From Streptomyces sp. NRRL B-24484 (GTDB taxonomy: Bacteria > Actinomycetota > Actinomycetes > Streptomycetales > Streptomycetaceae), in assembly GCF_000717715.1 (NCBI RefSeq), contig NZ_JOAI01000011.1, positions 1-64,000 of the forward strand: DNA of 64,000 bases, written 5' to 3'. A program made the translations under genes and the position numbers. This document shows, in pieces, positions 11,834 through 29,866 of this stretch. The notes under the pieces are model-generated. The model was given only the letters and a program-made list of their open reading frames with translations. It searched no databases and was not told where the DNA came from. How positions within the stretch are numbered: the first letter of the stretch is position 1; every line of letters starts with the position of its first letter.

Positions 11834-11835
11834 CG

Positions 11836-13176: not shown

Positions 13177-13187
13177 CCCGCACCGCT

Positions 13188-13219
13188 GCCCGGGCCGGGA
13201 CGGCGCCCCCGGCCCGGGC
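13188..13219. terminator. bidirectional hairpin terminator
   Basis: A 12-base arm GCCCGGGCCGGG (13188-13199) pairs perfectly with CCCGGCCCGGGC (13208-13219) across an 8-base loop. It starts 11 bases after the calerythrin stop and lies 38 bases past the stop of the converging DUF6917 gene, so it can insulate the biosynthetic cluster from its left neighbour. Confidence 0.65.
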
Positions 13220-13257
13220 CGCGGCATGCCGTCCGGGGCTCCCGGGCTCGCGGTGCG

Positions 13258-13665
13258 TCAGGAGCCGGCCGGGACGAACCGGACGGGGAGTTCCGGCCGG
13301 AGGTCCAGCTTCGCGCCGGTCAGCAGGTGGTCCGCGGCGATCAGCACGTTGTAGTGGTTGGGGAAGTGGCAGGCGTCGAAGCCGAGCACCGTGCCCACCC
13401 GGTGCTCCCCGACGAACACCTCGTCACCGCGGTCCAGCACCCCGGCCGCCCCGATCTCCGCGAAGCCGAGGAAGCCGACCCGGTCGATCCGGGCGCCCGC
13501 GGCGGTCTCCCGCTGATCGGTGGTCACCAACTCGTGCACCTCGCCCCGCCGGACGCACCGGCTGGCGAACGGCTCCAGGCTCATCCCGCGGTCCTCACGG
13601 CTGTGCAGCAGCACCTTCACCAGCGTGCCGGTGACCGTACGCTTCGGCCCGTTCTCGTGCGTCAC
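13258..13665 (-). CDS. DUF6917-type protein
   Basis: This 135-residue protein starts at GTG 13665, which overlaps the stop of the upstream dehydrogenase (GTGA). It reads VTHENGPKRTVTGTLVKVLL and contains GVLDRGDEVFVGEHRVGTVLGFDACHFPNHYN, a small beta-rich fold without membrane segments. I match it to DUF6917 by these features; no reaction is known. As the last gene of a tightly coupled operon it most likely serves the same pathway, perhaps as a small-molecule binding or cyclase-like protein. Confidence 0.55.
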   Translation of the reverse strand: MTHENGPKRTVTGTLVKVLLHSREDRGMSLEPFASRCVRRGEVHELVTTDQRETAAGARIDRVGFLGFAEIGAAGVLDRGDEVFVGEHRVGTVLGFDACHFPNHYNVLIAADHLLTGAKLDLRPELPVRFVPAGS

Positions 13666-14594
13666 CGCGCCTCCACCCGCTCGGCCCGGTAGGCGGCCTC
13701 GACCACCCGCAGGGCGTCCAGTCCGTCGGGCCCGCGCCCCGGGCCGGCGGCGCACGGCCCGCCGAGGACCACCGCCGCGAACTCCGCCAGCACCCCCTCG
13801 TACTCGTGCCAGAGCGACTGCTTGAACCCGGGGTGCCCGGCCAGCATGTCCGCCCCCAGCACCGTGCCGTCCGCCAACTCCACCGCCACGTCCTTGCACT
13901 CGCCGAGGAAGGACCAGTCCAGCTCGATCCGGGCGGTCACCCCGTCGGCGCCGGCCAGAGCGAGCACCGCCTGCCGGTCGACGCCCTGCGCGTCCCGGAC
14001 GACGTCGGCGGACTCCAGCCGCATCGGACCGGCCAGCAGCCGCACCAGGTCGTAGGCGTTCGGGCCGTTGTCGGCCACGCAGCCGCCGCCGCAGCGCTCC
14101 GGGTCCAGGTACCAGCGGTCCCGGCCGACGTGCTCCTCGATCCGCTCCAGGTAGCGGACGGTCACCGAACGGAGCGGCACCACGTCCGGGATCCGGGCCC
14201 GCAGGCCGGCGACCGCGGCGTTGTACCGGCGGTGGAAGGCGGTGAACAGCGGCACCTGCCGCTGCGCCGCGATCGCGGCCAACTCCTCGCCCTCCGGGGC
14301 CCGCAGGGCGAGCGGCTTCTCGACGCAGACCGGCAGCCCGGCGCGCAGCACGTCCCGGCAGATCGCGGTGTGCAGGTCGTTCGGCACGGTGACGACCACC
14401 GCGTCCAGGCCGCCCGCGGCGAGCATCGCCCGGTGGTCGGTGTGGCAGCCGACCCGTCCGGCGAAGGGGCGCAGCAGCTCGCGGTCGAGGTCGCAGACGG
14501 CGGCGAGCCGGACGTCCGGCACCCGGTCGAGCGCCGCCAGGTAGAACCGGGAGATCACCCCGAGGCCGACCAGGCCGATCCGCAGCCCGCTCAC
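13662..14594 (-). CDS. Gfo/Idh/MocA-family oxidoreductase
   Basis: The 310-residue protein has an N-terminal NAD(P)-binding fold (IGLVGLGVISRFYLAAL), the family motif CVEKPLAL near residue 92, and the substrate-side stretch WYLDPERCGGGCVADNGPNAYDLVRLL with the usual catalytic His replaced in context by Asn-Ala-Tyr-Asp. Family members oxidise or reduce a hydroxyl/keto carbon of sugars, inositols and related cyclitols. Stops overlap by four bases on both sides (14591-14594 and 13662-13665), so it is translationally coupled to the Ldh-like and DUF6917 genes. Confidence 0.8.
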   Translation of the reverse strand: MSGLRIGLVGLGVISRFYLAALDRVPDVRLAAVCDLDRELLRPFAGRVGCHTDHRAMLAAGGLDAVVVTVPNDLHTAICRDVLRAGLPVCVEKPLALRAPEGEELAAIAAQRQVPLFTAFHRRYNAAVAGLRARIPDVVPLRSVTVRYLERIEEHVGRDRWYLDPERCGGGCVADNGPNAYDLVRLLAGPMRLESADVVRDAQGVDRQAVLALAGADGVTARIELDWSFLGECKDVAVELADGTVLGADMLAGHPGFKQSLWHEYEGVLAEFAAVVLGGPCAAGPGRGPDGLDALRVVEAAYRAERVEAR

Positions 14595-15769
14595 CGCGCG
14601 ACCTCCGCACCGAGGCCGGCGTCCCGGCCGGTCCCGTCCTCCGCGCCGGCCCCGGTGGCCACCGGGCGGACGCCGAACCGGTCGGCGATGTCCGCGAGTT
14701 CGCCGAGCAGAGCGGGCGGCAGCGGCACCCCGTCGCGGTGCGCCTCGGCCGTGCGCCGGGCCTCGTGCCAGCCCGGGTAGGCGACCGGGCCGGCGCCGTC
14801 GGCGGGCGGGCAGGCGAGCACGGTGGAGAAGAGGGTGTGCGCGTCCAGCCCGGCCTGCGCGCCGTCGCGCAGGGCGGCGGGCGCGATCGCCAGCGCGAAC
14901 AGGCCGATGTCGTCGTCCCGCCCGGTCGGGCCGCCGTCGCCGTCCAGGGCCTCCGGCTCGGGGCCGAGGCCGGCACCGGGCAGCAGGGCGGCGAGCACCT
15001 CGACCATCAGGCCGAGTCCGAAGCCCTTGAACTCGCCGCCCGAGCCGGCGCCCAGCCAGAGCAGATGGGCGTCACCGCGGTCGAAGGCGCCGGGATCGGT
15101 CACCGGGCGGCCCGCCTCGTCCGCCAGCCATCCCGGGGGGACCGCCTCACCCGCGCGGGCGGCCGCCCGGATCCGCCCGGTCGGCACCGCGGTGGTGCTC
15201 ATGTCGAGGACGTAGGGCGGGAGTCCACCGGCCGGCGCGGCGACGCTCCACGGGTTGGTGCCGAGCAGCGCCACCGCGCCGCCCGGCGGCCGGGCGATCC
15301 GCTGGCGGCCGCAGTTGGTCGCGAGCAGCCCGATCATGCCCCGCCCGCAGACCCGGGCCGCGTGGTGCCCGGCGCAGCCGACGTGGGTGGCGCGACGGAC
15401 GGACACCAGGCCGATGCCGTACTGCTCGGCCCGGTCGGCGGCCAGGTCCATCGCGGCGCCGGCCTGCCACAGGCCGAGGGCGCGGCCCGCGTCGACCAGT
15501 ACGGCGGCGCCGCGGTCCGCCAGCACCCGCGGTTCGGCGGCGGGGTCGGCCCGCCCCTCGGCGAGCAGCGGCAGGTAGAGCCGGGAGAGGTTGGTCAGGC
15601 CGTGCGAGGTCAGGCCGGCGGCGTCGCCGTGGCAGAGCGCCTCGGCGGAGGCCAGCGCCCGGTCGGCCGGCAGGCCGTGGGCGGCGAACACCTCGGTGGT
15701 GAACCGGATCAGGTCGGGGTACGGGACGCGGACGGCGGTCGGGGCGGGCGCGGACGCCGCAGGGGTCAC
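14591..15769 (-). CDS. Ldh-family (malate/L-lactate-type) NAD(P)-dependent dehydrogenase
   Basis: The 392-residue protein follows the Ldh_2 family from start to end: ADRALASAEALCHGDAAGLTSHGL near residue 40, RRATHVGCAGHHAARV, then LLGTNPWSVAAP and LDMSTTAVPTGRI, and GSGGEFKGFGLGLMVEVLAALLPG. This fold is unrelated to classical LDH and reduces 2-keto acids or imines (YlbC, ureidoglycolate and 2,3-diketogulonate dehydrogenases). In this cluster it may reduce a keto or imino acid. ATG/GTG start at 15769; coupled by ATGA to the downstream dehydrogenase. Confidence 0.85.
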   Translation of the reverse strand: MTPAASAPAPTAVRVPYPDLIRFTTEVFAAHGLPADRALASAEALCHGDAAGLTSHGLTNLSRLYLPLLAEGRADPAAEPRVLADRGAAVLVDAGRALGLWQAGAAMDLAADRAEQYGIGLVSVRRATHVGCAGHHAARVCGRGMIGLLATNCGRQRIARPPGGAVALLGTNPWSVAAPAGGLPPYVLDMSTTAVPTGRIRAAARAGEAVPPGWLADEAGRPVTDPGAFDRGDAHLLWLGAGSGGEFKGFGLGLMVEVLAALLPGAGLGPEPEALDGDGGPTGRDDDIGLFALAIAPAALRDGAQAGLDAHTLFSTVLACPPADGAGPVAYPGWHEARRTAEAHRDGVPLPPALLGELADIADRFGVRPVATGAGAEDGTGRDAGLGAEVAR

Positions 15770-15821
15770 GGACTTGCTCCTGGTGTCGGTGGTGGACGGG
15801 CGGGCACCGCCGGGGCGCGGC

Positions 15822-17096
15822 TCAGCGGCGGGCGAAGGCGACGAGCAGCCGGGCGACGGCCGCGGCGAAGCCGTCCAACTGGTCGAGGTCGGCGAACTCG
15901 CCCTCGGCGTGCGCCCGGTTGCTGCCGAGGCCGCCCGGGCCGAGGACGACGGTGAAGGCGTCCGGCAGGCCGGCCGCCCAGATGGCGTCGCAGGTGAAGG
16001 CCGGCTCGTGGGCCGGCCAGCGGTCGATCCCGGCGCCCTGCAGCAGCGACTCCAGCTCCGGGTGGGCGCCGTCCAGGGTCGGCAGGCCGCGCTTCAGCCA
16101 GTCCAGCCCGGTGACCTCGGCGCAGTCGGCCGCCGTCCGGACGAACTCCGGCACGTCGGCGAACTCGCGGCGGAAGGCGTCCAGCCCCGAGCGGACGGCG
16201 GTCTCCACCGCGGCCTCCGCCCGCCGGCCCGAACCGGCGTCCTGGTAGGGGATGTTGAGCAGCAGCTCGCCGCGGCCGTAGACCCGGTTGTGCAGCGGCC
16301 CGGTGCCGATCCCGGCGATGCAGACCCGCTCCCGGGGCGCGGTGGCGGTGCCGAGCTCACGGGCCAGGTGCTGGGCGAGGTAGCCGAGCAGCACGGTGGC
16401 GTTGTGGCCGTCGCCGGGACGGTCGTCGACGGCGTCCTCGCCGCGGACCCGCAGCCGGGCGGTGGCGGCGGCGGTGGCCCGGGGCAGGTAGCGCAGGCCG
16501 GTGGGCTCGCAGAAGACGTTGAGCGCGCCGACGTGGCCCGCCTCGACCAGGACCCGGGTGCCGAAGGTGCCCATCGCGCCGCCCTCCTCGCCGGAGACGG
16601 CCTGCACCAGCACGCCCGTCGCGGTGCCGACCAGCGGTTCGGCGGCCCGGGCGGCGCGGATGCCGGCGAGCAGCGCGACCGCCGGGCCCTTGGCGTCGAT
16701 CGCGCCGCGGCCGAGGAAGCGCCGGCCGTCGAAGGAGACCGGCCCGTGGCCGGCGACGGTGTCCAGGTGGACGTTGAACATCACGGTGCGGGCGAGCGGC
16801 AGCGGCGGGCCGAGCCGCAGCACCAGGTTGGGCTGGCAGGCGAGGAAGCCGTCCTGTGCGGCGGCCCGCCGGACGGTGAGCGGGATGTCGGGCCGGTCCA
16901 GGTCGGCGGCCCGGGCGGGACCGTGCTGCACGGTCTCCAGGCCGATCCGGGCGGCGGCGCAGGCGTAGTGCAGCTGGGCCTCGGCCAGCCGGGGCGGCGG
17001 GGCGCCCGGCCCGGTCTCCAGCGGACCGGCGGTGGGCAGCTCCAGCAGGTCCAGCAGCAGGGCGTGGTCGGCGGGCAGCAGGCGGTCCTCGCTCAT
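15822..17096 (-). CDS. M20-family amidohydrolase/deacylase (ArgE/DapE type)
   Basis: The 424-residue protein has the dinuclear-metal residues in order: TVMFNVHLDTVAGHG (metal His and Asp), GRGAIDAKGPAVALLAGI (bridging Asp) and QAVSGEEGGAMG (catalytic Glu and metal Glu), with a dimerisation-domain insert around GDGHNATVLLGYLAQ. M20 enzymes such as DapE and ArgE remove N-acyl groups from amino acids. Here it may deprotect an acylated amine formed by the aminotransferases. The start at 17096 overlaps the upstream stop (ATGA); the downstream Ldh gene begins 52 bases later. Confidence 0.85.
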   Translation of the reverse strand: MSEDRLLPADHALLLDLLELPTAGPLETGPGAPPPRLAEAQLHYACAAARIGLETVQHGPARAADLDRPDIPLTVRRAAAQDGFLACQPNLVLRLGPPLPLARTVMFNVHLDTVAGHGPVSFDGRRFLGRGAIDAKGPAVALLAGIRAARAAEPLVGTATGVLVQAVSGEEGGAMGTFGTRVLVEAGHVGALNVFCEPTGLRYLPRATAAATARLRVRGEDAVDDRPGDGHNATVLLGYLAQHLARELGTATAPRERVCIAGIGTGPLHNRVYGRGELLLNIPYQDAGSGRRAEAAVETAVRSGLDAFRREFADVPEFVRTAADCAEVTGLDWLKRGLPTLDGAHPELESLLQGAGIDRWPAHEPAFTCDAIWAAGLPDAFTVVLGPGGLGSNRAHAEGEFADLDQLDGFAAAVARLLVAFARR

Positions 17097-18103
17097 CGGC
17101 CGACCGCCCCGTGGGGCAGGGGCGCGGAGGTGTCCGGCGAGCCGCCCGGCAGGGTGGCGGGGGCGCCCCGGCGGCCGGCCGGGAGCGCCGCCGCGGGGAT
17201 GCACCGCAGGCCGCCCGGCACCGCGCGCCAGCCCGGGGCGGACGGCAGCACCTGCTGCTCGACCAGCCGGGCCAGGGCGCGCCCCGCGCGGACGAAGCCG
17301 CTGTCCGCGCCGCCGTCCGCGGCGGTGCGGCCCTCGTGCGGCCGGACCTGCAGATGCGGCTCCAGCGACCAGGTGCCGCTCCAGCCGCGCTCCAGCAGCA
17401 GCCGCAGGCTGTCCGCGACCCGGGCGCCGCCCTCGCCGGGCGGCACGTACCGCGTCCGCTCCGAGCCGCCGACGGCGTCCTTGACGTGCACGTGGGCCAC
17501 GTGGTCGGCGACCTCCAGCAACATCAGGTGGCTGTCGTAGCCGTACGGGACGCCGTTGCCGGTGTCGAGGAGCAGCCGCAGCGCCGGGCTGTCCACGGTG
17601 GTGACCAGGTCGAGCATCCGCTCGGCCGAACTGCCCGCCCAGCCGCTGCAGTTCTCGTGCAGCAGGACGAGGCCGAGGGCGCCGGCGAGCTCGGCGAGGG
17701 CACGGAGCCGCTCCAGCACCCGGCGGCGCCACTCGGCCTCCGGCAGGCCCGCGTTGGGGTACGACATCACCCGGACGAACCGGGTGCCGAGCGCCGCGCA
17801 GCGCGGCCCGAGGGCGGTGAGCTCGTCGAGGTCCTCGTCGAAGGGATCGGCGACGGTGCCCGCCCAGTTGCCGATCCGGGAGGCCGCGCCGACGACCCGG
17901 ACCCCGTGGTCGGTGATCCGGTCGGCGATCCGCCGGACGGCGTCCTCGGGGAGGTCGGCGAGCCACTGGCCGTCGACCGTGCGCAGCTCCAGCTGGGACC
18001 AGCCGAGCCGGTCCAGGGCGGCGAGTTGGCCGGTCAGGTCGGTGGCGGCCTCGTCGCCGATGCCGGCGAAGCGGATCCGCGGTGCCGCGGCGGGGGCGCT
18101 CAT
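17093..18103 (-). CDS. sugar phosphate isomerase/epimerase family protein
   Basis: This 336-residue TIM-barrel protein (AP endonuclease 2 fold) shows GWSQLELRTVDGQWL at the first strands, LVLLHENCSGWAG, LLLDTGNGVPYGYDS and HVAHVHVKDAVGG, each presenting the His, Asp and Glu metal ligands of the IolE/Hyi/xylose-isomerase-like group. It probably isomerises or dehydrates a sugar, inosose or keto acid. The last 45 residues are Pro/Ala-rich and lie outside the barrel. Both ends overlap neighbours by four bases, which places it firmly in the operon. Confidence 0.85.
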   Translation of the reverse strand: MSAPAAAPRIRFAGIGDEAATDLTGQLAALDRLGWSQLELRTVDGQWLADLPEDAVRRIADRITDHGVRVVGAASRIGNWAGTVADPFDEDLDELTALGPRCAALGTRFVRVMSYPNAGLPEAEWRRRVLERLRALAELAGALGLVLLHENCSGWAGSSAERMLDLVTTVDSPALRLLLDTGNGVPYGYDSHLMLLEVADHVAHVHVKDAVGGSERTRYVPPGEGGARVADSLRLLLERGWSGTWSLEPHLQVRPHEGRTAADGGADSGFVRAGRALARLVEQQVLPSAPGWRAVPGGLRCIPAAALPAGRRGAPATLPGGSPDTSAPLPHGAVGR

Positions 18104-19122
18104 CGGGCGGCCGCCCGGGCCGGGGCGGCGGCGGGCTGCGCGACGGCCTTGGCCCGGTCGAGCAGCCGGACCACCTCGGTGTTGACCGCGAGGTCGGGGT
18201 GCGGTCCGCCGCCCCCGGCGGCGAAGTACCGGTAGGCGCGGCGGACGAAGGCGGTCAGCGAGTCGTCGTGCAGCAGCTCGGTGGTCTCGCCGTCCCGGTC
18301 GATGGTGATCAGCTGGGCGTAGGCGTCGGCCTCGCTGCCGGGGTAGTGCCCGATCAGGGTGCCGCCGGCGAGTTCGAGGGTGACCCGGCGCTCGCGCACG
18401 GGGGAGGTCATGTCGGAGCGGATCCGCGTCCAGACCCCGGAGCGGTGCTCGACCGTGAGCCAGGCGGTGCCGAGCCGGGGCAGCACCCGGCCGTCGACCA
18501 CCATGTCCGTCCCGCCGGCGCCGGTCACCTCGCCGGGCCCGGCCAGGGCGAGGCAGAGGCCGAGCGAGTGCGGCAGTTCGATGTCGAAGGCGGTCGGGTG
18601 GCCGTCGGCGGCCAGCGTCCGGGAGAAGCGCGGCTTGCGCTGGACGACGTGGACGGTGCGCAGCGGCCCGTACGCGCCGGTGGCGAGCACGGTGCGCAGC
18701 CGGTCGGTGAGCCGGCTGCCGAGCCACTGGGCGACCACCACCAGGTCCAGCCCGTGGCGGTCGCGGACGGCGAGCAGCTCGTCCAGCCCGCGGCCGTCGG
18801 CGGCCAGCGGCTTCTCGACCAGGATCCTGCGGAAGCCGAGCCTGCCGAGCCCGTCCAGCACCGCGACCCGGCCGGTGGGCGGTGTGCACAGGTGCACCAC
18901 GCAGTCGGCCGGGTCGAGCAGCCGGGCGGCGTCCGCGAGGGTCACCGGCCGAAGGTCGGCGGCGGCCGGATGGCTGCGGTGGGGGTCGGCGGCGAGCACC
19001 GGTGCCGCGGCGAACAGTCGGGCGGTGTCCGCGCCCGCGCGGAGTCTGCGGAGCACCGGCAGGTGCAGGCCGAGGCCGGCGCGCCCCATGCCGACGAGCA
19101 GTGTGCGGAATCCGTCCGCCAT
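18100..19122 (-). CDS. Gfo/Idh/MocA-family oxidoreductase (operon leader)
   Basis: The 340-residue protein begins MADGFRTLLVGMGRAGLGLHL, a glycine-rich NAD(P) site, followed by RRILVEKPLAADG, the family's EKP motif, and a C-terminal sugar-binding half. ATG 19122 is preferred to upstream in-frame starts because those lie in AT-rich promoter-like DNA; the nearest AAGGA is 12 bases away, a long spacing. It is the first gene of the six-gene leftward operon and diverges from the aminotransferase pair across a 221-base promoter region. Confidence 0.75.
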   Translation of the reverse strand: MADGFRTLLVGMGRAGLGLHLPVLRRLRAGADTARLFAAAPVLAADPHRSHPAAADLRPVTLADAARLLDPADCVVHLCTPPTGRVAVLDGLGRLGFRRILVEKPLAADGRGLDELLAVRDRHGLDLVVVAQWLGSRLTDRLRTVLATGAYGPLRTVHVVQRKPRFSRTLAADGHPTAFDIELPHSLGLCLALAGPGEVTGAGGTDMVVDGRVLPRLGTAWLTVEHRSGVWTRIRSDMTSPVRERRVTLELAGGTLIGHYPGSEADAYAQLITIDRDGETTELLHDDSLTAFVRRAYRYFAAGGGGPHPDLAVNTEVVRLLDRAKAVAQPAAAPARAAAR

Positions 19123-19343: not shown

Positions 19344-20510
19344 ATGGGTGAACACTCCGGGGTCTCCTTCTTCACGCAGGCGGAGAGTTTCGAGTCCCTC
19401 TGGCCGACCACCCGGCGCCATCTCGGCGAACTCATGGACCGGGGCAAGTACTCCCACGGCCCGAAGGTCGCCGAACTCGAGGCGGCCCTCGCCGCCTGGA
19501 CGGGCGCCCGGCACGTGATCGGGGTCAACAGCGGCACCGACGCCCTCGTGCTGCTGCTGCGGGCCGCCGGACTGCGGGCCGGGGACGAGGTCGTGGTGCC
19601 CGCCTACACCTTCGTGGCCTCCGCCTCCTCGGTGGTGCTGGCCGGCGGCCGCCCGGTCTTCGCCGACATCGACCCGGTCACCTACGGGCTCGACCCGGCG
19701 AGCGCCGAGGCCGTCGCCACCGACCGCACCACGGCGGTCATGCCCGTCCACCTCTTCCACCAACTCGCCGACCTGCGCGGCATCCTGGACGTCGCCGCCC
19801 GCCGCGGGCTGACCGTCGTCGAGGACAGTGCCGAGGCCTTCGGGATGCGCTGGGACGGCGTCCACGCCGGACTGCACGGCGCCGGCGGCGTGCTCTCGTT
19901 CTTCCCGACCAAGACCCTCGGCGCGATCGGCGACGCCGGCGCCGTCCTCACCGACGACCCCGGCATCGCCGAGGCGGTCTCCGCGATGCGCCACCACGGC
20001 CGCTCCGGGCCCAGCACGGACGACTTCCCGGCGATCAACCGGCCCACGGACCTGCTCGGCGTCAACAGCAAGATGGACGACGTCCAGGCCGCCGTCCTGC
20101 TCGCCAAACTCACCCGTGCCGAACGGGACATCGCCCGCCGCGCCGCCCTCGCGGCCGGCTACACCGAACGCCTCGCCGGCACCCCCGGCCTCCACCGGCT
20201 GCCGACCACCGTCGACCGCGGCGTGCCCACCGACCCGGTCTGGTACGTCTACCTGATCGAGACCGAGCGCCGCGACGCCCTCGCCGCCCACCTCGCCCGC
20301 CACGGCGTGCAGACCGAGACGTACTACCCGACCCCGCTGCACCTGCAGCCCTGCTTCGCCGCACTCGGCCACCGGCCCGGCGACTTCCCGCACGCCGAGG
20401 CCGCCTGCGAACGCGCCCTCGCCCTGCCGCTCCACCCGGACCTCACCGACGACGACCTGGACCGGGTCTGCGACCTCGTCCGCGACTTCCACCACGGAAG
20501 GCAGCCATGA
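19344..20510 (+). CDS. DegT/DnrJ/EryC1/StrS-family PLP aminotransferase
   Basis: The 388-residue protein has GVNSGTDALVLLLRA (phosphate-binding loop near residue 62), VVEDSAEAFG with the PLP-contacting Asp at 161, and LSFFPTKTLGAIGDAG with the Schiff-base Lys at 190. These are the full catalytic set of sugar aminotransferases of the WecE/DesV type, which aminate keto sugars or cyclitols using Glu or Gln. ATG 19344 follows GAGAG; an upstream ATG at 19317 is less likely. Its stop overlaps the next aminotransferase by ATGA. Confidence 0.9.
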   Translation: MGEHSGVSFFTQAESFESLWPTTRRHLGELMDRGKYSHGPKVAELEAALAAWTGARHVIGVNSGTDALVLLLRAAGLRAGDEVVVPAYTFVASASSVVLAGGRPVFADIDPVTYGLDPASAEAVATDRTTAVMPVHLFHQLADLRGILDVAARRGLTVVEDSAEAFGMRWDGVHAGLHGAGGVLSFFPTKTLGAIGDAGAVLTDDPGIAEAVSAMRHHGRSGPSTDDFPAINRPTDLLGVNSKMDDVQAAVLLAKLTRAERDIARRAALAAGYTERLAGTPGLHRLPTTVDRGVPTDPVWYVYLIETERRDALAAHLARHGVQTETYYPTPLHLQPCFAALGHRPGDFPHAEAACERALALPLHPDLTDDDLDRVCDLVRDFHHGRQP

Positions 20511-21637: not shown

Positions 21638-23280
21638 GCGGCGACGGGGAGCCGGGCCGCGGCCGCCAGCACGGCGAGCGCCCGCCGGTCCGGCTTCCCG
21701 GTGCTGCCGACCGGGAGCCGTTCCAGCAGCAGCAGGTGCTCCGGCAGCTTGTACCGCTCCAACCCGCAGTCCTCCGCCAGGAATCCGGTCAGGTCGGCCA
21801 GGGCGAGGCCGACCGCCGTCGCCCGCGGCACGACGCAGGCGCACATCCGCTCGCCCAGGTCCGGATCGGACACCGGCACGCACACCGCCTCGGCCACCGA
21901 CGGATGGCCGTCCAGCAGCCCTTCGACCTCGGCGGTGCCGATCGACACCCCGCCGCGGTTCACCGTCTGCTTGATCCGCGACACCACCCGCAGCCGCCCG
22001 TCCGCCTCCAGCACCCCGAGGTCGCCGGCCCGCACCCAGCCGCCGTCCACCCGCTGCCGGGCGTCGAGTTCGGGCGCGCCGACGTGGCAGAGCGGGCTCA
22101 TCGGGCCGCGGGCCTGGATCTCGCCCGGCCGCCCGGCCGGGAGCGGACGTCCGTCCGGACCGCACACCCGGATCGCCGTCACCGCCGGGTCGGGGCGGCC
22201 CACCCGCTGCACGTCGCCGTCCGGATCCGTCCAGCGGGTGTGGCAGTTCATGCCGTCGCTCGACCCGTACACGTTGACCAGCGGCCGCCCGAACCGGGCC
22301 AGCGCCCCGCGCAGCACCGCCGGGGTGAGCATCGCCGAACTCGACACCACCGCCTGCAGCGAGGAGAGGTCCTCCGCCGGCTCCGCCGGCTGCTCGGCCA
22401 TCCGGCGCAGCATGGTGGGGACGGCCGCCAGGTGTGTCGGCCGCAGCCGGGAGACCGCCCGCAAGGCCCCGGCCGGGTCGAAGCCGTCGTGCAGCAGCAC
22501 CGTCGCCCCGCAGCGCACCAGCGCCACCACCGCCAGCGAGCCGTACGCCGTCGCCGGGGAGACCAGCAGCAGCACCCGGGGCGGCGCGCCGTCCGCCGTC
22601 CGCAGCGCCTCCTCGACGTACCGGCCGCGGCCGCCCGCCAGCGCGTTGTGCGAGTAGGCGATCATCTTCGGCGCCGCCTCGGAGCCGGAGGAGACCAGGA
22701 TCCTGGCCGGCGCCTCCGGGTCCACCGCGACCGGCGGCACCTCGCGGCGGAGCGGCAGCGGCAGCGCCTCGACGTCCAGGACCCGCTGCAGGTGGGGCAG
22801 TTCACCGCGCAGGTCGGTGAGCAGCTCCAGCGGGCGCCCGCCCGAGGGCAGTTCGGCCACGGTCAGCACGGTGTCCGCCCGGGAGGTGCCGAGCAGGGCG
22901 GTCAAGTCCCGGCGCCCGTGGCCCGGCAGGCAGGGCAGCACCACCGCGCCGAGCGCCGCGACCGCGAGATCCGCCGCCAGGGCGCGCCGGTCGGCGGGCA
23001 GCCGGGTGGCCACCACGGAGCCCGCGCCCACCCCGCGAGCCGCCAGCGCCGCCGCGAGTCCGCGCACCAGGTCGTCCAACTCCCGGTAGGAGAGCGCCCC
23101 CCGGCCGTCCACCACCGCGGTCCGCTCCGGGTGCGCCGCGACCCGCGCCGCGAACAGCGCGTGCAGCCCCCGGTCGGGGCAGAGGCCGGCCGCCACCCAG
23201 GCCCGCCGCAGCTCCGCCGGGACCTGGTCGGGGAAGGCGATGCCGTTGGCCGAGATCCACGGCGTCCGGTCGGTGGTCAT
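21574..23280 (-). CDS. AMP-binding acyl-adenylating enzyme (acyl-CoA synthetase-like)
   Basis: The 568-residue protein is an ANL-superfamily ligase: phosphate loop ILVSSGSEAAPKMIAYSHN (degenerate against the usual SGTTGxPK but keeping the Lys), VNVYGSSDGMN (adenine motif), GGWVRAGDLG and the C-terminal hinge RLRVVSRIKQTVNRGGVSIG with a catalytic Lys in PVGSTGKPDRR. It activates a carboxylic acid as acyl-AMP, then usually as CoA thioester. ATG 23280 follows GAGGAG. It is 38 bases downstream of the CoA-transferase gene and probably in the same transcript. Confidence 0.85.
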   Translation of the reverse strand: MTTDRTPWISANGIAFPDQVPAELRRAWVAAGLCPDRGLHALFAARVAAHPERTAVVDGRGALSYRELDDLVRGLAAALAARGVGAGSVVATRLPADRRALAADLAVAALGAVVLPCLPGHGRRDLTALLGTSRADTVLTVAELPSGGRPLELLTDLRGELPHLQRVLDVEALPLPLRREVPPVAVDPEAPARILVSSGSEAAPKMIAYSHNALAGGRGRYVEEALRTADGAPPRVLLLVSPATAYGSLAVVALVRCGATVLLHDGFDPAGALRAVSRLRPTHLAAVPTMLRRMAEQPAEPAEDLSSLQAVVSSSAMLTPAVLRGALARFGRPLVNVYGSSDGMNCHTRWTDPDGDVQRVGRPDPAVTAIRVCGPDGRPLPAGRPGEIQARGPMSPLCHVGAPELDARQRVDGGWVRAGDLGVLEADGRLRVVSRIKQTVNRGGVSIGTAEVEGLLDGHPSVAEAVCVPVSDPDLGERMCACVVPRATAVGLALADLTGFLAEDCGLERYKLPEHLLLLERLPVGSTGKPDRRALAVLAAAARLPVAAQRTGAARAAKAQTASATAST

Positions 23281-23318
23281 ACGGGGCACTCCTCGGAGAG
23301 AGCGGGGACGGGCGGCGG

Positions 23319-24890
23319 TCACGGGCGGAAGGCCCACGGCGGGCGGACGAGCGTGCACCCGGCCCCGTCCAGGGCGGGAGCCAGGCGCGGATCGGCGGCC
23401 AGTACGGCGAGATCGGTGCAGACCGGCACCGACGGCGCCGGGCCGTCGCTGCGGCCGGTGCGGCACAGCAGCCCGGCCGCGGACAGCAGCGAGGACTCCA
23501 CCCGCTGCGCCCGGCCGGTCCGTTCGCGGGCCTCCAGCGCGGCCGCCGCACCCTCGGCGCAGAGCAGCCCGCCCAGCACGTCGCACAGCGTCAGCAGGGA
23601 CGGCCGCACCGGCTCCCCCGGCGGGGTGACCAGGGCGGCGAGGCCGGAGTACGCCTGGACGGGGTAGTCGGTGCCGAGCGGCAGGCCCGGGCCGCGTTCC
23701 GTTCCGCTGCCGGAGGCCTGCACATGGACGAGCCCGGGGCGGACGGCGGCCAGCGACTCCGCGTCCAGGCCGAGGGCGGGCACCTTGGCGGGGGCGAGGC
23801 TGTGCAGCAGCACGTCCGCCGCGGCCACCGCGCCGCGGACGGCGGCCCGGCCCGCCGGGCTGCGCAGGTCGGCCTCCAGCACCTCCTTCCGCCGGTTGAG
23901 CGCCGCGAACCTGGCCGAGACCGGGCCCGCCATCGGCGGCACGCCGCGCAGCGGGTCGCCGCCCGGCGGCTCCACCCGCACCACCCGGGCGCCCAGCAGC
24001 CGCAGGACGTGCCCGGCGAGCGGACCCTGCACCCGGCGGGCCACCTCCACCACCGTCACGCCGTCCAGCGGGCCGCGGCCCGGCTCCGGCGGCCGCCCGG
24101 CTCCGGCGGTCGCCCCGCCCGGGGTGATCCGCCACGGCACCGCCGAACCGGTACCGGGTGCGGGCCCTGCGGCGACCGCGGTGACGGTGACCCCGCACTC
24201 GGTGGCCAGCGCGGCGAGCCGCCGGTACGGCAGGGTGGCGGCGGCCGCGCCCAGGTCCGCCGGCAGCGGGCAGACGGCGGTGGCGTAGCGCAGCTGGAAC
24301 GGCCGCCAGGCCCGGGCGACCGCCCGGCGGTCCGCGCCCAGGGCGGCCCAGAACCGCTGCCAGCCGTCGGGCTCCAACGCCTCCAGCTCGAACCGCACCC
24401 CGTCCAGCGAGGTGAACGGCGGCCCGCCCGGCCCGGCCCGCTCCTCGTCCTCGGGGCCCTCGTCGGCGGTTGCCGCCGCCAGGTACTGGCCGACCGCGAG
24501 CAGCGCCGCCTGTGCGACCGACACCTCCACCATGGAGTGCGGCGCGCCCAGTCGGGCGGCCCGCAGTGCGGCCAGGGCGCCCGTGGCGGCGAGCACCCCG
24601 GCGGCCGCGGAGGCGAAGTCCACGCCCAGCGGCAGGGGCCGGCCGTACCGGCGGCCGTGCACGTGCATCAGGCCGCAGGCGGCCTGGACGTCCGCCTCGC
24701 CGTGCAGCGGCAGCGCGACGGGCCCGGCCCAGGAGATCCGGCAGCCGATCCGGTGCGGGCCGGCCGCCAGACCGAGGGTGCCGTCGGGGTGCCGCCCGGG
24801 GCGGTGGCCGAGCGCCCGCAGGTGCGCGGCGGCCAGGCCGAGGGCGACCCGGGGCGGTGCGGCGGCGAGTGTGCCGGCGGCCGTGCTCAC
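23319..24890 (-). CDS. two-lobed CaiB/BaiF-type CoA transferase
   Basis: This 523-residue protein holds two incomplete CaiB/BaiF units. Residues about 60-245 resemble the middle and C-terminal lobe (DVQAACGLMHVHGR, then LGVDFASAAAGVLAATGALAAL). Residues 275-523 start over with the N-terminal lobe (LDGVTVVEVARRVQGPLAG) and reach GTDYPVQAYSGL, where Asp408 aligns with the family's catalytic Asp, and then stop early. Standard members are about 400 residues with one unit. Class III CoA transferases move CoA between acids. GTG 24890 overlaps the methyltransferase stop. Whether both active sites work is unclear. Confidence 0.75.
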   Translation of the reverse strand: MSTAAGTLAAAPPRVALGLAAAHLRALGHRPGRHPDGTLGLAAGPHRIGCRISWAGPVALPLHGEADVQAACGLMHVHGRRYGRPLPLGVDFASAAAGVLAATGALAALRAARLGAPHSMVEVSVAQAALLAVGQYLAAATADEGPEDEERAGPGGPPFTSLDGVRFELEALEPDGWQRFWAALGADRRAVARAWRPFQLRYATAVCPLPADLGAAAATLPYRRLAALATECGVTVTAVAAGPAPGTGSAVPWRITPGGATAGAGRPPEPGRGPLDGVTVVEVARRVQGPLAGHVLRLLGARVVRVEPPGGDPLRGVPPMAGPVSARFAALNRRKEVLEADLRSPAGRAAVRGAVAAADVLLHSLAPAKVPALGLDAESLAAVRPGLVHVQASGSGTERGPGLPLGTDYPVQAYSGLAALVTPPGEPVRPSLLTLCDVLGGLLCAEGAAAALEARERTGRAQRVESSLLSAAGLLCRTGRSDGPAPSVPVCTDLAVLAADPRLAPALDGAGCTLVRPPWAFRP

Positions 24891-25675
24891 GGGCGGCGGC
24901 CGTGGACGGTGTGCACCAGGTTGGAGCAGGCCCGGAAGTCCGGGTGCACCAGGATCTCCCGCAGCTCGGCGAGTTCGTCCTCGGTCAGCCCGGCGCGCAG
25001 CAGCGGCTCGCGCAGGTGGCGGGTGTTGTGGATCTGCAGCTGCAGACCGGGCGAGCCCGGGGTCAGCGCGGTGACGTACGGGACGGCCTCCACACCGGCG
25101 AAGCCGGCCCGCCGCAGGGCGGCGGCGCACTCGCGGCCCCAGCCCTGGTGCGAGCCGCGCTCGCGGAACGCCTGCAGCTTGGCGCGCTGGAACCGTTCGA
25201 ACAGCTCCTTGGCGCGGGCGTTCGGTGCGAGCAGCACGGGCGCGTACTCGGCGTCGAACTCCAGCAGGTGCAGCACTCCGCCGGGCCGCAGTGCGGCGAG
25301 CAGCCGGCGGAGCACGGCCTCCCGCTCGGGCAGGTGGGAGAGGACCAGCCGGGCGTGGATCAGGTCGAACGCGCCGTCGGGCAGCGCGTCGTGGACGATG
25401 TCGTGGCGATGGACCTCCAGGTTGGGACGGGCCGGCACGGGCAGCGGCGCCAGGTCGGTGGCGAGCACCCGCCCGGCGGGGCCGACCCGGTCGGCCAGCC
25501 AGAGGGCGATGCTGCCGGCGCCGGCACCGACGTCCAGACAGTCCATGCCGGGGCGGACGCCGACGGCGACCAGCCGCTCGATGCTGATCGGGTCGAGCCA
25601 GGCCGCCAGGCAGCGGTGCTGTTCGGCGGCGTGGCTGCCGGTGTTGTCGAAGAGGTAGGCGGGGGCGAGGGTCAT
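24887..25675 (-). CDS. class I SAM-dependent methyltransferase
   Basis: The 262-residue protein has the SAM motif I MDCLDVGAGAGSIALWLADRVG (near residue 44), an acidic residue at the end of the second strand (VLATDLAP), and FDLIHARLVLSHLPER followed by LRPGGVLHLLEF, the usual post-motifs of a class I methyltransferase. N-, O- or C-methylation cannot be distinguished. ATG 25675 has GGAGAG upstream. It leads the CoA-transferase and ligase genes, and a 245-base gap precedes it, so it may have its own promoter. Confidence 0.85.
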   Translation of the reverse strand: MTLAPAYLFDNTGSHAAEQHRCLAAWLDPISIERLVAVGVRPGMDCLDVGAGAGSIALWLADRVGPAGRVLATDLAPLPVPARPNLEVHRHDIVHDALPDGAFDLIHARLVLSHLPEREAVLRRLLAALRPGGVLHLLEFDAEYAPVLLAPNARAKELFERFQRAKLQAFRERGSHQGWGRECAAALRRAGFAGVEAVPYVTALTPGSPGLQLQIHNTRHLREPLLRAGLTEDELAELREILVHPDFRACSNLVHTVHGRRP

Positions 25676-25920
25676 CGGTCTCTCTCCGGTCCGTCGGTGA
25701 CCGGCGGACACTGGTCGGCCGGGGCGTGCGGGCTGTGCGGGCATCGCGGGCTGTGCGGGCGTGCGGGCGTGCGGTACTGCGGCGTTCGGGCGATGCCCGG
25801 GCGTTTGTCCAGAGGCGCGCGGGTTACGCGTACGGGCGCGCGCGGGGGCCTCCGGTGACGGCCGGGCGGTGCCCCCACGTGCCCCCCTGTGCGGCATCCG
25901 TGTGCCGCTGAGCACCCGCC
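25676..25920. other. intra-cluster gap with short direct repeats
   Basis: This 245-base GC-rich gap separates two same-strand gene groups of the cluster. It contains two copies of GCGGGCTGTGCGGGC (25728-25742 and 25746-25760) followed by degenerate GTGCGG units. No gene fits. It may contain a secondary promoter for the methyltransferase gene. Confidence 0.45.
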
Positions 25921-27282
25921 CTAGGACACGGGGACGGGTCGGTCGGCCGCGTGGGCGAGCACCCGCCGGGCGGCGAGCCGGCCGGAGCGGACGGCGCCCT
26001 CGCTGCTCGGCCGGAGCATCACCCAGTCCCCGGCGTACTCGATCGCACGCGTGGGCCTGGCCAGGAAGGCGGCCCGCTCCCGGACGGCGGCGGGCGGCGC
26101 CTGCGGCAGGCCGTGGCGGTACCGGTGCACCAGGGTGCGGACGGTGGCCGCCCGCAGGCCCGGGAGGAAGCGCTCGGCCTCCGCGCAGGCGATCTCCACC
26201 ACCCGCTCGTCCGGCTCCTCCAGCAGCTCCGGGCTCGTCCACGGCGAGACGAAGACGTTCGCCAGGCCGCGGCCCTCGGGCGCCCGGCCGCGGGCCTTGA
26301 GGTGGTCGAGGACGATCCCGGTGCAGACCAGGCTCTCGCCGGCCGGGACGGAGATCGCATAGCTGGGGCTGCGGGTCGGGCCGGGCAGCGGCCGGTCCAG
26401 CAGGCAGGCCACCTTGAGCATCGGCGCGTAGCTGCTCGCTGCCACGAACCCGCGCTCCTCGGGCGGGAGTCCGGGGTGCAGGGCGAGTGCGACGGGGGCC
26501 GGCACGGCCAGTACCGCCTGCCGGGCGGTGCACCGCGAGCCGTCGGCGAACTCCAGCAGCACCCCGCCGCCCTCCGGCCGGACGGCGGTCACCCGGGCCC
26601 CGAGGGCCACGTCCAGCCGGTCGGCGAGCGAGCGGGCCAGGGTGTCCATGCCGTCCCGGTAGGTCATCCAGCGCGCACCGGCGCCGCCGACCGAGAGCAG
26701 GGTGGCCACCATCGGCCCGATCGCCGAGGAGTCGGGCCGCCAGCCGAAGCAGTGGCTCGCCAGCGGCTGGAGCATCCCGTCGAGCAGTTCCTCGCGGCCG
26801 CCCGCACAGTACTGACCGAGCGTCAGCTCGCCGCTGGGTGCGGTCTCCGGGTGGTCCGGGTCGAAGCCGCGCCAGCGCAGGGCCAGTTCGGCGGTGAACC
26901 GGAGCCAGGCGAGCCGGCCGCGCCAGGACAGCCCGGCGCCGGTCACCAGCCCCCTGGGGTGGCCGAGATGAGCATGGGCGCGGCCGTGCCGCCAGAGGGC
27001 GAAGCCGCTCTCGACGACCGGGACGTCGGACTCGGGGATGCCGACCGCCCGGATCAGCTCCCAGGTGGCCTCGTACCCGGCCCCGGCGATGGTCTCGGCG
27101 CCCTCGTCGACCAGGTAGCCGTCCACGCGGGTGGAGGCCATCCGTCCGCCGACCCGCCCGGTGCCCTCGAAGACCCGCACCGCGCGCCCGGCGGCGGCCA
27201 GGTGGTGGGCGGCGGCGAGCCCGGCGATCCCGGCGCCGACCACGGCGACGTCCAGCTCGGGCGTGCCCTCGGCGGCGCTCAT
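25921..27282 (-). CDS. FAD-dependent oxidoreductase (amine oxidase/protoporphyrinogen oxidase-like)
   Basis: The 453-residue protein starts with the dinucleotide-binding motif VAVVGAGIAGLAAAHHLAAAG at residues 12-32, continues with RVGGRMAS (the GG motif), and ends with RAIEYAGDWVMLRPSSEGAVRSGRLAARRVL, the ATG-type FAD-binding C-terminus. This is the flavin amine oxidase/phytoene desaturase/HemY superfamily, which dehydrogenates C-N or C-C bonds. It is coupled by ATGA to the second ligase gene upstream. A role in desaturating the prenylated intermediate is inferred from context only. Confidence 0.85.
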   Translation of the reverse strand: MSAAEGTPELDVAVVGAGIAGLAAAHHLAAAGRAVRVFEGTGRVGGRMASTRVDGYLVDEGAETIAGAGYEATWELIRAVGIPESDVPVVESGFALWRHGRAHAHLGHPRGLVTGAGLSWRGRLAWLRFTAELALRWRGFDPDHPETAPSGELTLGQYCAGGREELLDGMLQPLASHCFGWRPDSSAIGPMVATLLSVGGAGARWMTYRDGMDTLARSLADRLDVALGARVTAVRPEGGGVLLEFADGSRCTARQAVLAVPAPVALALHPGLPPEERGFVAASSYAPMLKVACLLDRPLPGPTRSPSYAISVPAGESLVCTGIVLDHLKARGRAPEGRGLANVFVSPWTSPELLEEPDERVVEIACAEAERFLPGLRAATVRTLVHRYRHGLPQAPPAAVRERAAFLARPTRAIEYAGDWVMLRPSSEGAVRSGRLAARRVLAHAADRPVPVS

Positions 27283-28892
27283 GTCCACCGCCCGCTGCCG
27301 AAGGCCGCCGCACCGGCGAGGAGCCGCTCGCGCAGCTCGTGCCGCCGGACCTTCCCGGTGCCGGTGCGCGGCACGGCGTCCCAGCCGAGCACCACCGGCT
27401 CGGCGAGCGGCGGCAGGTCGTGGACGGCCCGCCGCCAGCGTTCGCCGTCGAGTCCGCCGCTGCCGGTGACCAGCACCGGCAGCGGGCGGCCCCCGGCGAC
27501 GGCGAGCAGCACCGCCTCCTCGACCTCCGGCAGCCGGTCGTGCAGCACGTCCTCGACCTCGACGCAGCTCAGCCCGGGGACCATGTCCACCTCGCGGTCG
27601 AGCAGCAGCAGCCGCCCGTCCCGGGTGCGGACGCCGAGGTCGCCGGTGTTGAACCACGGCCCGGACGCCTTCGCCTCCCACCGCTCCGGCTCGCCCAGGT
27701 AGCCGAGGCAGCGGGCGCCCGTCCGGGTCAGCACCAGGCCGGGTTCGCCGCGCCGCACGGGCGCCATGGTGGCGGGGTCGACCACCTTGAGCCGCACCCA
27801 GCCGGGCAGCGGCCGGCCGAGGTCCCGGGTGGTCGGGTGGCGCTGCTCGCTGTCCGCCAGCGCCCCGCGGGTGAGGAAGCGGAAGGTGAGCGGCCCGGTC
27901 TCGGTCTGCCCCCAGCCCTGCATCCACAGCGGGCGGCGCCGTTCGGAGGCGGCCAGGAAGGTACGGACGGTCGGCGGGTGCACCGCGTCGAAGGTCGAGA
28001 TGTACAACCGCACGTCGCGGAACGGGTTCTGCGGCCCGGCCGCCAGCTGCTGCCAGCGGACGTAGGTGGACGGCAGCGCCTCCAGGATCGTCGGCGGGTG
28101 GCTGCGCAGCAGCGCGGCGGCGGTCGACGGGTCGGAGTCCGGCAGGATCGCGAAGGTGCCGGGCGCCCGCCAGAAGGCGCTGGCCGTCCAGGTGACCGCG
28201 CGGCCGTGGGCGAAGGAGATGGCGCTGGCGACGGTGTCCGGGCGGCGGGCGGAGAGCACCGGCCAGCGGCGCGCTTCGAAGGCGGCCAGCCGGCGGATCA
28301 GGGTACGGGTGGAGTGCACCACCAGCTTGGGCACGCCGGTGGTGCCCGAGGTGTGGTGGACGGTCAGCGGCGCGTCGTCGGGGCGGCGGTGGACGGCGGG
28401 CACGGGGTGGCCGCGCAGGTCGTCCGGGATCAGGGCGCCCTCGGCCGGCCCGTCCAGGCAGACGGTGCGGCGGGCCAGCCGGGTGAGGTCGTGGCCGGCC
28501 GACCCGACGGTGCCCAGTACGTCCCGCTGGGTCACCAGGACGGCGGGCTCCAGCCGTTGCAGCAGGACGGCCAGGCCGTCCGGCGGCACCCGGTCGGAGA
28601 GCAGTGCGGGCACCGCGCCGATCCGGGCGGCGGCGCAGGCGAGCAGCACGTAGTCCCAGTGGTTGCGCTTCACCACGGCGACCCGGTCGCCGGGCCGCGC
28701 GCCGGCGGCGGCCAGGCCGGCGGCGGTCTCCCGGACGAGGTCGGCGAGCCGCTCCGTCGTCCAGCTGGTGCCGCCCTCGGGGGCGAGGTCGAGCGGGCGG
28801 CCGAGTTCGACCCGGACCGGCGACCGTCGCTCGGCCAGCACCTCGAACAGCGGGCCGAGGTCCAGCGGCAGGGGCCTCACCAGGGCGGTCAC
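27279..28892 (-). CDS. second AMP-binding acyl-adenylating enzyme
   Basis: The 537-residue ANL-family protein has a canonical phosphate loop TVHHTSGTTGVPKLVVHS, the adenine motif LWMQGWGQTETGPL, WFNTGDLGVRTRDGRL and the hinge LLLDREVDMVPGLSCVEVEDVL, plus the C-terminal Lys in PRTGTGKVRRHEL. It therefore looks fully active, unlike the degenerate loop of its paralogue at 21574-23280. GTG 28892 overlaps the UbiA stop and its own stop overlaps the oxidoreductase start, so three genes are translationally chained. Confidence 0.88.
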   Translation of the reverse strand: MTALVRPLPLDLGPLFEVLAERRSPVRVELGRPLDLAPEGGTSWTTERLADLVRETAAGLAAAGARPGDRVAVVKRNHWDYVLLACAAARIGAVPALLSDRVPPDGLAVLLQRLEPAVLVTQRDVLGTVGSAGHDLTRLARRTVCLDGPAEGALIPDDLRGHPVPAVHRRPDDAPLTVHHTSGTTGVPKLVVHSTRTLIRRLAAFEARRWPVLSARRPDTVASAISFAHGRAVTWTASAFWRAPGTFAILPDSDPSTAAALLRSHPPTILEALPSTYVRWQQLAAGPQNPFRDVRLYISTFDAVHPPTVRTFLAASERRRPLWMQGWGQTETGPLTFRFLTRGALADSEQRHPTTRDLGRPLPGWVRLKVVDPATMAPVRRGEPGLVLTRTGARCLGYLGEPERWEAKASGPWFNTGDLGVRTRDGRLLLLDREVDMVPGLSCVEVEDVLHDRLPEVEEAVLLAVAGGRPLPVLVTGSGGLDGERWRRAVHDLPPLAEPVVLGWDAVPRTGTGKVRRHELRERLLAGAAAFGSGRWT

Positions 28893-29866
28893 GACAGACC
28901 CCCGGTGAGCGGGCCGGCGGCGGCCAGGTCCACGGCGACCAGCAGGGCGCAGCTCAGCCGGTGGAGGCGGATGCCGAGCCGCCGGGCGAGCAGGATCTCG
29001 CCCGCGACGAAGCCCTGGTACCACTGGCGGACCCGCAGCACGAGCACCGGCGCCATCACCGCCGGGAACCACCAGGGCGCCACGCCCGCCACGGCCGAGC
29101 CGACCACCAGCACCGCCTCCAGGGCCGAACAGCCCGCCACGAAGAGGGCGTTGCCGCGCGGCGGCAGGAGCACGGCGGCGGTCCGGCGGCCGACCGCGCG
29201 GTCGCCCGGGATGTCGTTGGTGTTGGAGTAGACGCCGAACAGCGCGGGGCCGAGGCCGAACACCAGCGCCTGCACGGCGACGAACCCGTCGAAGCGGCCG
29301 GTCAGCAGCCCGTACAGCGGCAGGACGAACAGCCAGCCCAGCGCGGCGAGGAAGAACTCCTGGAAGCCGTTGTAGCTGATCCGCAGCCACCACGAGTACT
29401 GGAAGCCGAAGACCGTCAGGGCGAGCACCCCGGCCACGGCCCAGGGCGGGCGTGCCGGGGCCAGGGCCGGCGCGGCCAGCCAGCAGAGGGCGCAGGCGGC
29501 GGTGGAGAGCCAGCCGAAGCGGATCGCCTGCGGCTCGGTGAGGGTGCCCGCGATCAGCGGCTTGCGGGCCAGCCGGCGGGCGGGCGCGTCCGGGCCGTAG
29601 TTGACCGCGTCGCTGCCGTCCCGGTAGCCGGTGACGTCGTCGAAGGTGCACATCGCGGCACTCATCGCGATCTCGCCGCCGAGGAAGAGCAGCAGGACGG
29701 CGAGGGTCGTCGCGGCGGTCGCGGCGGAGCCCCCCGGCAGCACCATGGCGGCGACCAGCGGGACGCTCAAGTAGTAGTCGTAGATGTCGAGTTTGGCCAG
29801 CCGGGCGTAGGCCCGCCAGGCGATCGGCGGTGATTCGGGGACGGCCGGTGCGGCGGCGTGCTCCAC
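28889..29866 (-). CDS. UbiA-family prenyltransferase
   Basis: The 325-residue protein is strongly hydrophobic with about eight membrane segments. It has the two Asp-rich motifs of the UbiA superfamily: FDDVTGYRDGSD at residues 75-86, and NTNDIPGDRAVGRRT in the second half. These bind Mg and the prenyl diphosphate. UbiA enzymes attach an isoprenoid chain to an aromatic or other acceptor in the membrane. It is the first gene of the second leftward block. No prenyl diphosphate synthase lies in the cluster, so the donor would come from primary metabolism. Confidence 0.85.
   Translation of the reverse strand: MEHAAAPAVPESPPIAWRAYARLAKLDIYDYYLSVPLVAAMVLPGGSAATAATTLAVLLLFLGGEIAMSAAMCTFDDVTGYRDGSDAVNYGPDAPARRLARKPLIAGTLTEPQAIRFGWLSTAACALCWLAAPALAPARPPWAVAGVLALTVFGFQYSWWLRISYNGFQEFFLAALGWLFVLPLYGLLTGRFDGFVAVQALVFGLGPALFGVYSNTNDIPGDRAVGRRTAAVLLPPRGNALFVAGCSALEAVLVVGSAVAGVAPWWFPAVMAPVLVLRVRQWYQGFVAGEILLARRLGIRLHRLSCALLVAVDLAAAGPLTGGLS

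Follow-up and report, generated by a model that had tools for sequence, protein, structure and literature searches.

A gene cluster family of many actinobacterial genera whose product may combine an isoprenoid chain with an aminated sugar-acid unit

The window analysed here, a stretch of 64,000 nucleotides from Streptomyces sp. NRRL B-24484 (contig NZ_JOAI01000011.1, positions 1 to 64,000), carries fourteen genes (g01 to g14) that represent a biosynthetic cluster family present in many actinobacterial genera. The genes are open reading frames across 13258-29866 with the codon-position G+C of high-GC coding DNA, and they form a block of six on the minus strand, a block of two on the plus strand and a further block of six on the minus strand. 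A first-pass annotation, made from the sequence alone, had described them as an orphan biosynthetic cluster without polyketide synthase or nonribosomal peptide synthetase. The families that it named agree with Pfam, the second Gfo/Idh dehydrogenase (g06) being recognized only at E 8e-4, and no ketosynthase, condensation or carrier domains were detected in the fourteen proteins (Pfam, E 0.001). Its bounds, 13258-29866, were too narrow, since an EF-hand gene (plus strand) and a gene for a small secreted protein (minus strand) recur with the fourteen genes and extend the cluster to about 12649-30390. These two genes, the DUF6917 identity of g01 and the wide distribution of the cluster were all absent from that annotation. 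The features are the following:

12649..13176, plus strand: EF-hand protein of 175 residues with three PROSITE-like EF loops, a calerythrin homologue (PDB 1nya, E 2.4e-45; 44.7% identity to calerythrin)
13258..13665, minus strand: g01, DUF6917 protein (PF21891, E 2.8e-56)
13662..14594, minus strand: g02, Gfo/Idh dehydrogenase (PF01408, E 1.3e-20; sugar dehydrogenases among the PDB matches, WbpB a weak one)
14591..15769, minus strand: g03, Ldh_2 family dehydrogenase (PF02615, E 4.4e-95)
15822..17096, minus strand: g04, M20 family deacylase (PF01546, E 2.7e-12; M20-like motifs conserved)
17093..18103, minus strand: g05, xylose-isomerase-like TIM barrel (AP_endonuc_2; epimerase, isomerase or lyase; PF01261, E 2.9e-31; weak PDB matches UlaE and D-tagatose 3-epimerase)
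18100..19122, minus strand: g06, divergent Gfo/Idh-like dehydrogenase (PF01408, E 8e-4, below the Pfam cut-off)
19344..20510, plus strand: g07, DegT aminotransferase, 3-aminotransferase-like (PF01041, E 2.2e-105; best PDB match 2oga)
20507..21637, plus strand: g08, second DegT aminotransferase (PF01041, E 7.1e-88; best PDB match 2oga, then WbpE)
21574..23280, minus strand: g09, acyl-adenylating enzyme with AMP-binding and C-terminal domains (PF00501, E 1.4e-58; PF13193)
23319..24890, minus strand: g10, family III CoA transferase (CoA_transf_3) with a long N-terminal extension (PF02515, E 4.8e-59, two matched stretches)
24887..25675, minus strand: g11, SAM-dependent methyltransferase (PF13489, E 5.7e-16)
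25921..27288, minus strand: g12, flavin amine-oxidase-family enzyme (Amino_oxidase; PF01593, E 6.9e-50), its start perhaps at 27282
27279..28892, minus strand: g13, acyl-adenylating enzyme (PF00501, E 1.2e-50)
28889..29866, minus strand: g14, UbiA-family membrane prenyltransferase (PF01040, E 1.3e-14, above the cut-off; two Asp-rich motifs)
30088..30390, minus strand: small protein of 100 residues with a signal-peptide-like start, family unnamed (recurs in 45 of 113 loci)

Four-base overlaps had been claimed at eight of twelve same-direction junctions. There are eleven such junctions, and the overlap is exactly four bases in seven of them; with the in-frame ATG at 27282 as the start of g12, the claimed eight would be reached. 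The g08 and g09 genes overlap tail to tail by 64 bases; g08 was taken from the list of open reading frames, the overlap rule of the calling script having dropped it, and genes in the relatives' loci were called with a simple custom script. A carrier protein hidden in the gap between g11 and g12 was sought and rejected, being absent both from the gene list and from the gap as read by eye. The best NCBIfam match of g12 is HpnE, below the cut-off, and a PDB search with g06 gave nothing better than E 0.1. The small secreted protein has no match in Pfam or NCBIfam; the window's copy matches all 45 members, which come from 45 of 113 loci, some of them in the same genome. A DUF3533/ABC2-type membrane protein (30876-32138) adjoins the cluster and occurs in one of the 13 other type A stretches described below, several of which end nearby.

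The DUF6917 gene g01 is the most specific marker of the cluster. Of 70 genomes from the genus of the window, 24 carry it; a sample of 394 genomes from the class gave 11 carriers, counting the window's own genome, and 14 control genomes gave none. A search with its protein returned 792 homologues, the best named matches belonging to Kitasatospora, which is therefore the most likely genus of the window; one homologue set comprised 54 of 120 listed homologues. A scan of named genomes with g01 as query found 147 relatives, from which 80 loci were kept, and nearly all of these contain the same block, so that the cluster is not an isolated one. The loci come from Kitasatospora, Streptomyces, Saccharopolyspora, Amycolatopsis, Lentzea, Crossiella, Kutzneria, Nocardiopsis, Streptomonospora, Streptosporangium, Actinomadura, Catenuloplanes, Actinocatenispora and other genera. 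Synteny thus extends across many actinobacterial genera: each of g01 to g08 was found in 50 to 54 of the 54 named non-Kitasatospora loci longer than 19 kb, the only loci entering this count. Extended flanks were obtained for 19 loci, paired with 19 of 20 fetched stretches (L233 was not used), and genes were labelled there at a 60-bit cut, so that the label g09 or g13 in a divergent locus may denote a paralogue. All fourteen genes and the EF-hand gene occur in eight of these 19 loci from other actinobacteria, namely in Streptomonospora (L114), Kutzneria (L131), Saccharopolyspora (L086 and L076), Crossiella (L083), Streptomyces lomondensis (L091), Lentzea (L080) and Amycolatopsis (L095), with identities of 42-63% for the second-half and EF-hand proteins. 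In 20-kb stretches from the 13 other Kitasatospora genomes with the window's cluster type, g01 was present in all 13 and the UbiA gene in ten, the other three having UbiA on the same contig.

That the sugar-type first half and the prenylation half belong together as one cluster is well supported. Among the 70 genomes of the genus, 21 have a UbiA match (E 1e-15 or better) and all 21 also have g01, that is, 21 of 24 genomes with g01 versus 0 of 46 without it (Fisher 5e-15; owing to kinship among the sampled genomes, such values overstate independence). UbiA is missing from three of the g01 carriers, namely from G005, which holds a remnant locus (L038), and from G022 and G039, which hold a variant with tryptophan (trp) genes. 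Elsewhere, UbiA lies within the fetched DNA of 46 of the 54 full-length named non-Kitasatospora loci, and a match of E 1e-55 or better was obtained in 48 of 48 named genomes tested, which represent 50 of the 80 named loci and for only part of which adjacency was checked. The two halves have also been inherited together: protein distances of seven first-half genes correlate with those of UbiA (r = 0.85 over 72 loci and 0.87 over 33 Streptomycetaceae loci, shuffle p 0.0005), a correlation to which shared species history contributes and which has no control gene. Ten loci were omitted from it by hand (L068-L075, repeats of Kitasatospora genomes, as well as L125 and L061), as were loci without UbiA or with fewer than six of the seven first-half genes, leaving the 72. 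It might be argued that two unrelated clusters are neighbours by chance, since the second half varies in gene content and order and, as a point against a single unit, the sugar module of L046, L047 and L067 has no UbiA gene close by. These three loci show that the first-half module is separable in principle. However, the absence of UbiA from all 46 genus genomes without g01, the correlated distances and the eight extended loci that hold every gene make a chance association very improbable indeed; independence of the halves, to be shown by loss of synteny in relatives and named by the first-pass annotation as a refutation of its reading, was rejected apart from these three exceptions.

Some loci depart from the usual arrangement. 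In Streptomyces canus (L123 and L234) the module seems to be split, a g06-g01 block and a g08-methyltransferase-UbiA-g13-dehydrogenase block lying about 30 kb apart if the two stretches share a contig, as their coordinates suggest. Genome G509 (L109, L232 and L233) carries a second set comprising g04, g07, g08, two g13-like genes and UbiA about 50 kb from the first. At G012:C1:1492167-1493116 the UbiA gene was matched as two overlapping pieces and may be frame-shifted or misassembled.

Several variants of the cluster exist. Type A, with all genes present, comprises the window and 13 more genomes of the genus, whereas type B, known from seven Kitasatospora loci, has g01-g08 followed by g11, g12, g13 and g14 in varied order and is devoid of g09, g10 and the EF-hand gene; its secreted protein weakly resembles allene-oxide-cyclase-like barrels, below the cut-off. 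A quick first-half tree places the two Kitasatospora types in separate, non-sister clades, which suggests that they were acquired separately. In one lineage the genes dxs (10 of 113 loci), ispG (nine), ispH (eight) and a polyprenyl synthase gene (nine) lie near the module; in L116 the first three pass an NCBIfam cut-off, the synthase being named from below-cut-off matches. That they lie inside the loci of this lineage speaks for a prenyl supply of the cluster's own. In the trp variant (L046, L047) the genes trpA, trpB and trpD score above cut-off and are accompanied by trpC- and trpF-like genes (L047) as well as by genes for an ATP-grasp enzyme, a B3/4-domain protein and a nucleotide-sugar dehydrogenase; no match to g06 was found in either locus, and the product of this variant is perhaps a tryptophan-containing relative of the main product. 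In both loci and in L067, g01 is fused to the end of g02, and these fusions suggest that the DUF6917 protein acts together with the Gfo/Idh enzyme. L067 (G318, 6820-10285) holds a minimal set of g05, g04 and fused g02-g01, aminotransferases being absent within the 12.4-kb stretch. The remnant L038 (G005, 1772-16773) retains g01-g04, which look intact, and a scrap of g12; genes that by eye resemble a defence island, one of them for a DNA cytosine methyltransferase, lie between the remnant and the usual neighbours. In L025 (G036, 10807-12773) two extra genes, by eye for a hydrolase and a 2-hydroxyacid dehydrogenase, are located between g08 and g09.

The EF-hand protein is homologous over its full length to calerythrin of Saccharopolyspora erythraea (PDB 1nya, residues 3-174), a protein characterized as an intracellular Ca2+ buffer in a review (PMC10574481). 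Cluster-linked copies reach 70.8% identity to calerythrin, in contrast to the more distant copy of the window at 44.7%. A homologue is present in 37 of the 54 full named loci, in some of them between cluster genes. Of the 70 genus genomes, the 14 of type A (the window's among them) and no others have copies of 83-99% identity; all other matches found are at most 35% identical. By coordinates, the best genome-wide EF-hand match lies inside the cluster locus or its extension in 10 of 15 named genomes; of the remaining five genomes, four gave nothing stronger than weak matches (E 4e-16 to 2e-10) and one gave none at all. On account of the close homologues, calerythrin itself is probably linked to such a cluster in S. 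erythraea. That species has a DUF6917 protein (P0010), of which no near-identical copy was found in the 22 Saccharopolyspora genomes searched, the best match being 81% identical. A kinship of DUF6917 with another family was considered and rejected: of 55 members, two touch DUF7259 (best E 0.07), one TOBE (0.14) and one DEC-1_N (6.8), and a PDB sequence search with g01 gave no match up to E 10. That g01 might resemble the small subunit of C-glycoside-cleaving enzymes is a conjecture.

We tentatively propose, putting the probability a little short of even, that the genes at about 12649-30390 act as one cluster and make a small molecule in which an aminated sugar-acid unit is joined to an isoprenoid chain. 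From the evidence on the DegT, nucleotide-sugar dehydrogenase, M20 and UbiA proteins we infer that a UDP-N-acetylhexosamine (UDP-HexNAc) uronate would be oxidized, aminated, deacylated, prenylated, methylated and, in type A, acylated. The uronate would be formed from UDP-HexNAc by a nucleotide-sugar 6-dehydrogenase, which is encoded in the clusters of many relatives and in the window's genome is presumably supplied from outside the cluster. The Gfo/Idh enzyme g02 with its partner g01 would oxidize C3, and g07 or g08 would aminate it, as in the WbpA-WbpB-WbpE route. The second Gfo/Idh and the second DegT enzyme, together with g05, g04 and g03, may add another amino group, cleave off the N-acyl substituent and bring about closure or reduction of the unit. 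The carboxylate might be activated by g13 and the prenyl chain attached by g14, with oxidation by g12 and methylation by g11, and in the window's type an acyl group would be added by g09 and g10; the calerythrin-like and secreted proteins would be accessory. The first-pass annotation had suggested an aminated sugar, cyclitol or amino-acid unit joined to a prenylated acceptor. An aminated-sugar-type part is indeed linked with a prenylation part, and for the unit a UDP-aminouronate origin is tentatively favoured.

The enzymes behind this proposal can be assigned with differing precision. The PDB ranking of g07 is headed by 2oga, which we take to be a desosamine-pathway transaminase, followed by scyllo-inositol transaminase, 4qgr and, in fourth place, WbpE (E 5e-64), with QdtB also high. 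For g08 the order is 2oga and WbpE (E 8e-57), with QdtB near the top and scyllo-inositol transaminase among the best. DesV, WbpE and QdtB aminate C3. WbpB is only a weak PDB match of g02 (E 7.4e-6). A nucleotide-sugar dehydrogenase gene is present in 34 of the 54 named loci, mostly just past the EF-hand gene; one representative passed the general NCBIfam model and scored 216 and 204 bits with UDP-ManNAc, 165 with UDP-GlcNAc, and 149 and 92 with UDP-glucose models. The M20 motifs of g04, whose conserved residues we take to be metal ligands, are conserved in 111 aligned sequences and fit removal of an N-acyl group, and the adenylation motifs of g13 are conserved in 49 sequences. The g14 protein belongs to the UbiA superfamily (PF01040, 54.6 bits versus a cut-off of 34.2; 37 of 37 aligned members match), and both Asp-rich motifs are conserved; it has no close solved relative, UBIAD1 being matched by profile at E 3e-4. 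UbiA-type terpene cyclases exist (PMC10301674), and g14 is a putative prenyl transferase to an acceptor rather than a cyclase.

Several observations weigh against the proposed route. The specific NCBIfam models of the nucleotide-sugar dehydrogenase all stay below cut-off in the one representative, and the window's cluster lacks this gene, a 48% identical one being located on another contig of the genome. The enzyme was rejected as a cluster marker for the genus, the association being weak (23 of 24 genomes with g01 versus 25 of 46 without, Fisher 3e-4). No acetyltransferase or glycosyltransferase was found among the fourteen proteins (Pfam). Finally, the best NCBIfam match of g02, far below cut-off, is the inositol 2-dehydrogenase IolG, and scyllo-inositol transaminase comes second for g07. 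Together with its place among the best matches of g08 and a weak match of g05 to myo-inosose-2 dehydratase, these similarities would suit an aminocyclitol, for which g02, as an IolG-like enzyme, would oxidize inositol and g05, as an IolE-like one, would dehydrate it; amination by the DegT enzymes and then prenylation, possibly after aromatization of the ring, would follow. However, neither protein belongs to the respective equivalog family (69.7 bits versus 355 for g02, 24.8 versus 290 for g05), scores so far under the cut-offs that the inositol route was rejected as first choice, and the linked nucleotide-sugar dehydrogenase would be left unexplained; we regard this product as distinctly unlikely.

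Another candidate is a modified amino acid (for instance a substituted proline, a pipecolate or another imino acid) or a short peptide-like product; the M20, Ldh_2 and adenylating enzymes would then process an N-acyl amino acid prior to prenylation. Ldh_2 enzymes can reduce cyclic imino acids, the NCBIfam matches of the M20 protein are amino-acid deacylases (all below cut-off), and the ATP-grasp enzyme of the trp variant resembles peptide-type ligases, likewise below cut-off. Yet two Gfo/Idh-type and two sugar-type DegT enzymes suit a sugar better, and a sugar-derived amino acid would merge this explanation with the one that we prefer; taken by itself, it appears unlikely. The genes might also serve a cell-surface polymer or a lipid-linked sugar rather than a secreted small molecule, given that nucleotide-sugar dehydrogenases and WbpE-like enzymes are typical of surface polysaccharides and that a small secreted protein recurs. 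This we consider quite improbable in view of the patchy distribution of the cluster (24 of 70 genus and 11 of 394 class genomes) and because no glycosyltransferase, flippase or polymerase family occurs in the fourteen scanned proteins, the extra genes of other loci having been scanned only in part.

The proposed linkage between an isoprenoid chain and an aminated sugar-acid unit has partial parallels in known systems. The WbpA-WbpB-WbpE route leads to UDP-2,3-diaminouronates, and the cluster resembles it in having a nucleotide-sugar dehydrogenase (in many relatives), a Gfo/Idh dehydrogenase and a WbpE-like DegT enzyme. In contrast to that route, the cluster has extra M20, Ldh_2, TIM-barrel and DUF6917 proteins as well as a second Gfo/Idh and a second DegT enzyme, and is joined to UbiA and adenylating enzymes. 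We do not file it as a pathway of that type, because no acetyltransferase family such as the N-acetyltransferase WbpD was found among the fourteen proteins. Membrane UbiA-like prenyltransferases within actinobacterial biosynthetic clusters are exemplified by Mpz10 (PMC4044012) and the zigralone prenyltransferase (PMC13307353); as far as the available portions of these papers describe them, the acceptors are a phenazine and an indole, and the zig gene list contains no sugar module. Gromomycin (PMC12105684) provides, in the portion available, the precedent of a prenylated nitrogen-containing antibiotic whose cluster went unrecognized by antiSMASH. However, that cluster features Rieske proteins, a PAP2 phosphatase, a P450 and an arginine-derived guanidine, and its gene table there names no DegT, Gfo/Idh or UbiA protein. 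A match to the gromomycin or zigralone clusters was therefore rejected, since the gene sets, as given in these portions, differ. In the open-access literature searched, no paper naming such a cluster was found, in line with the earlier statement that no described cluster is known to have this gene set; a description elsewhere is possible.

The family combines an unusual enzyme set with an unexpected EF-hand partner, a combination not found described in the open-access literature. A bolder version of the proposal, which we hold to be unlikely, is that the sugar-derived unit itself would be the acceptor of UbiA, giving widespread nucleotide-sugar-derived meroterpenoids without a shikimate or polyketide aromatic part, for which calerythrin would be a Ca2+ protein devoted to the pathway or to self-protection. 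The cluster places calerythrin-type EF-hand proteins and DUF6917 in a genetic context, and its design is modular, one sugar module being combined with UbiA, an acyl branch, a dedicated isoprenoid supply or trp genes. Being common to many actinobacterial genera, it predicts a class of natural products that rule-based genome mining may miss.

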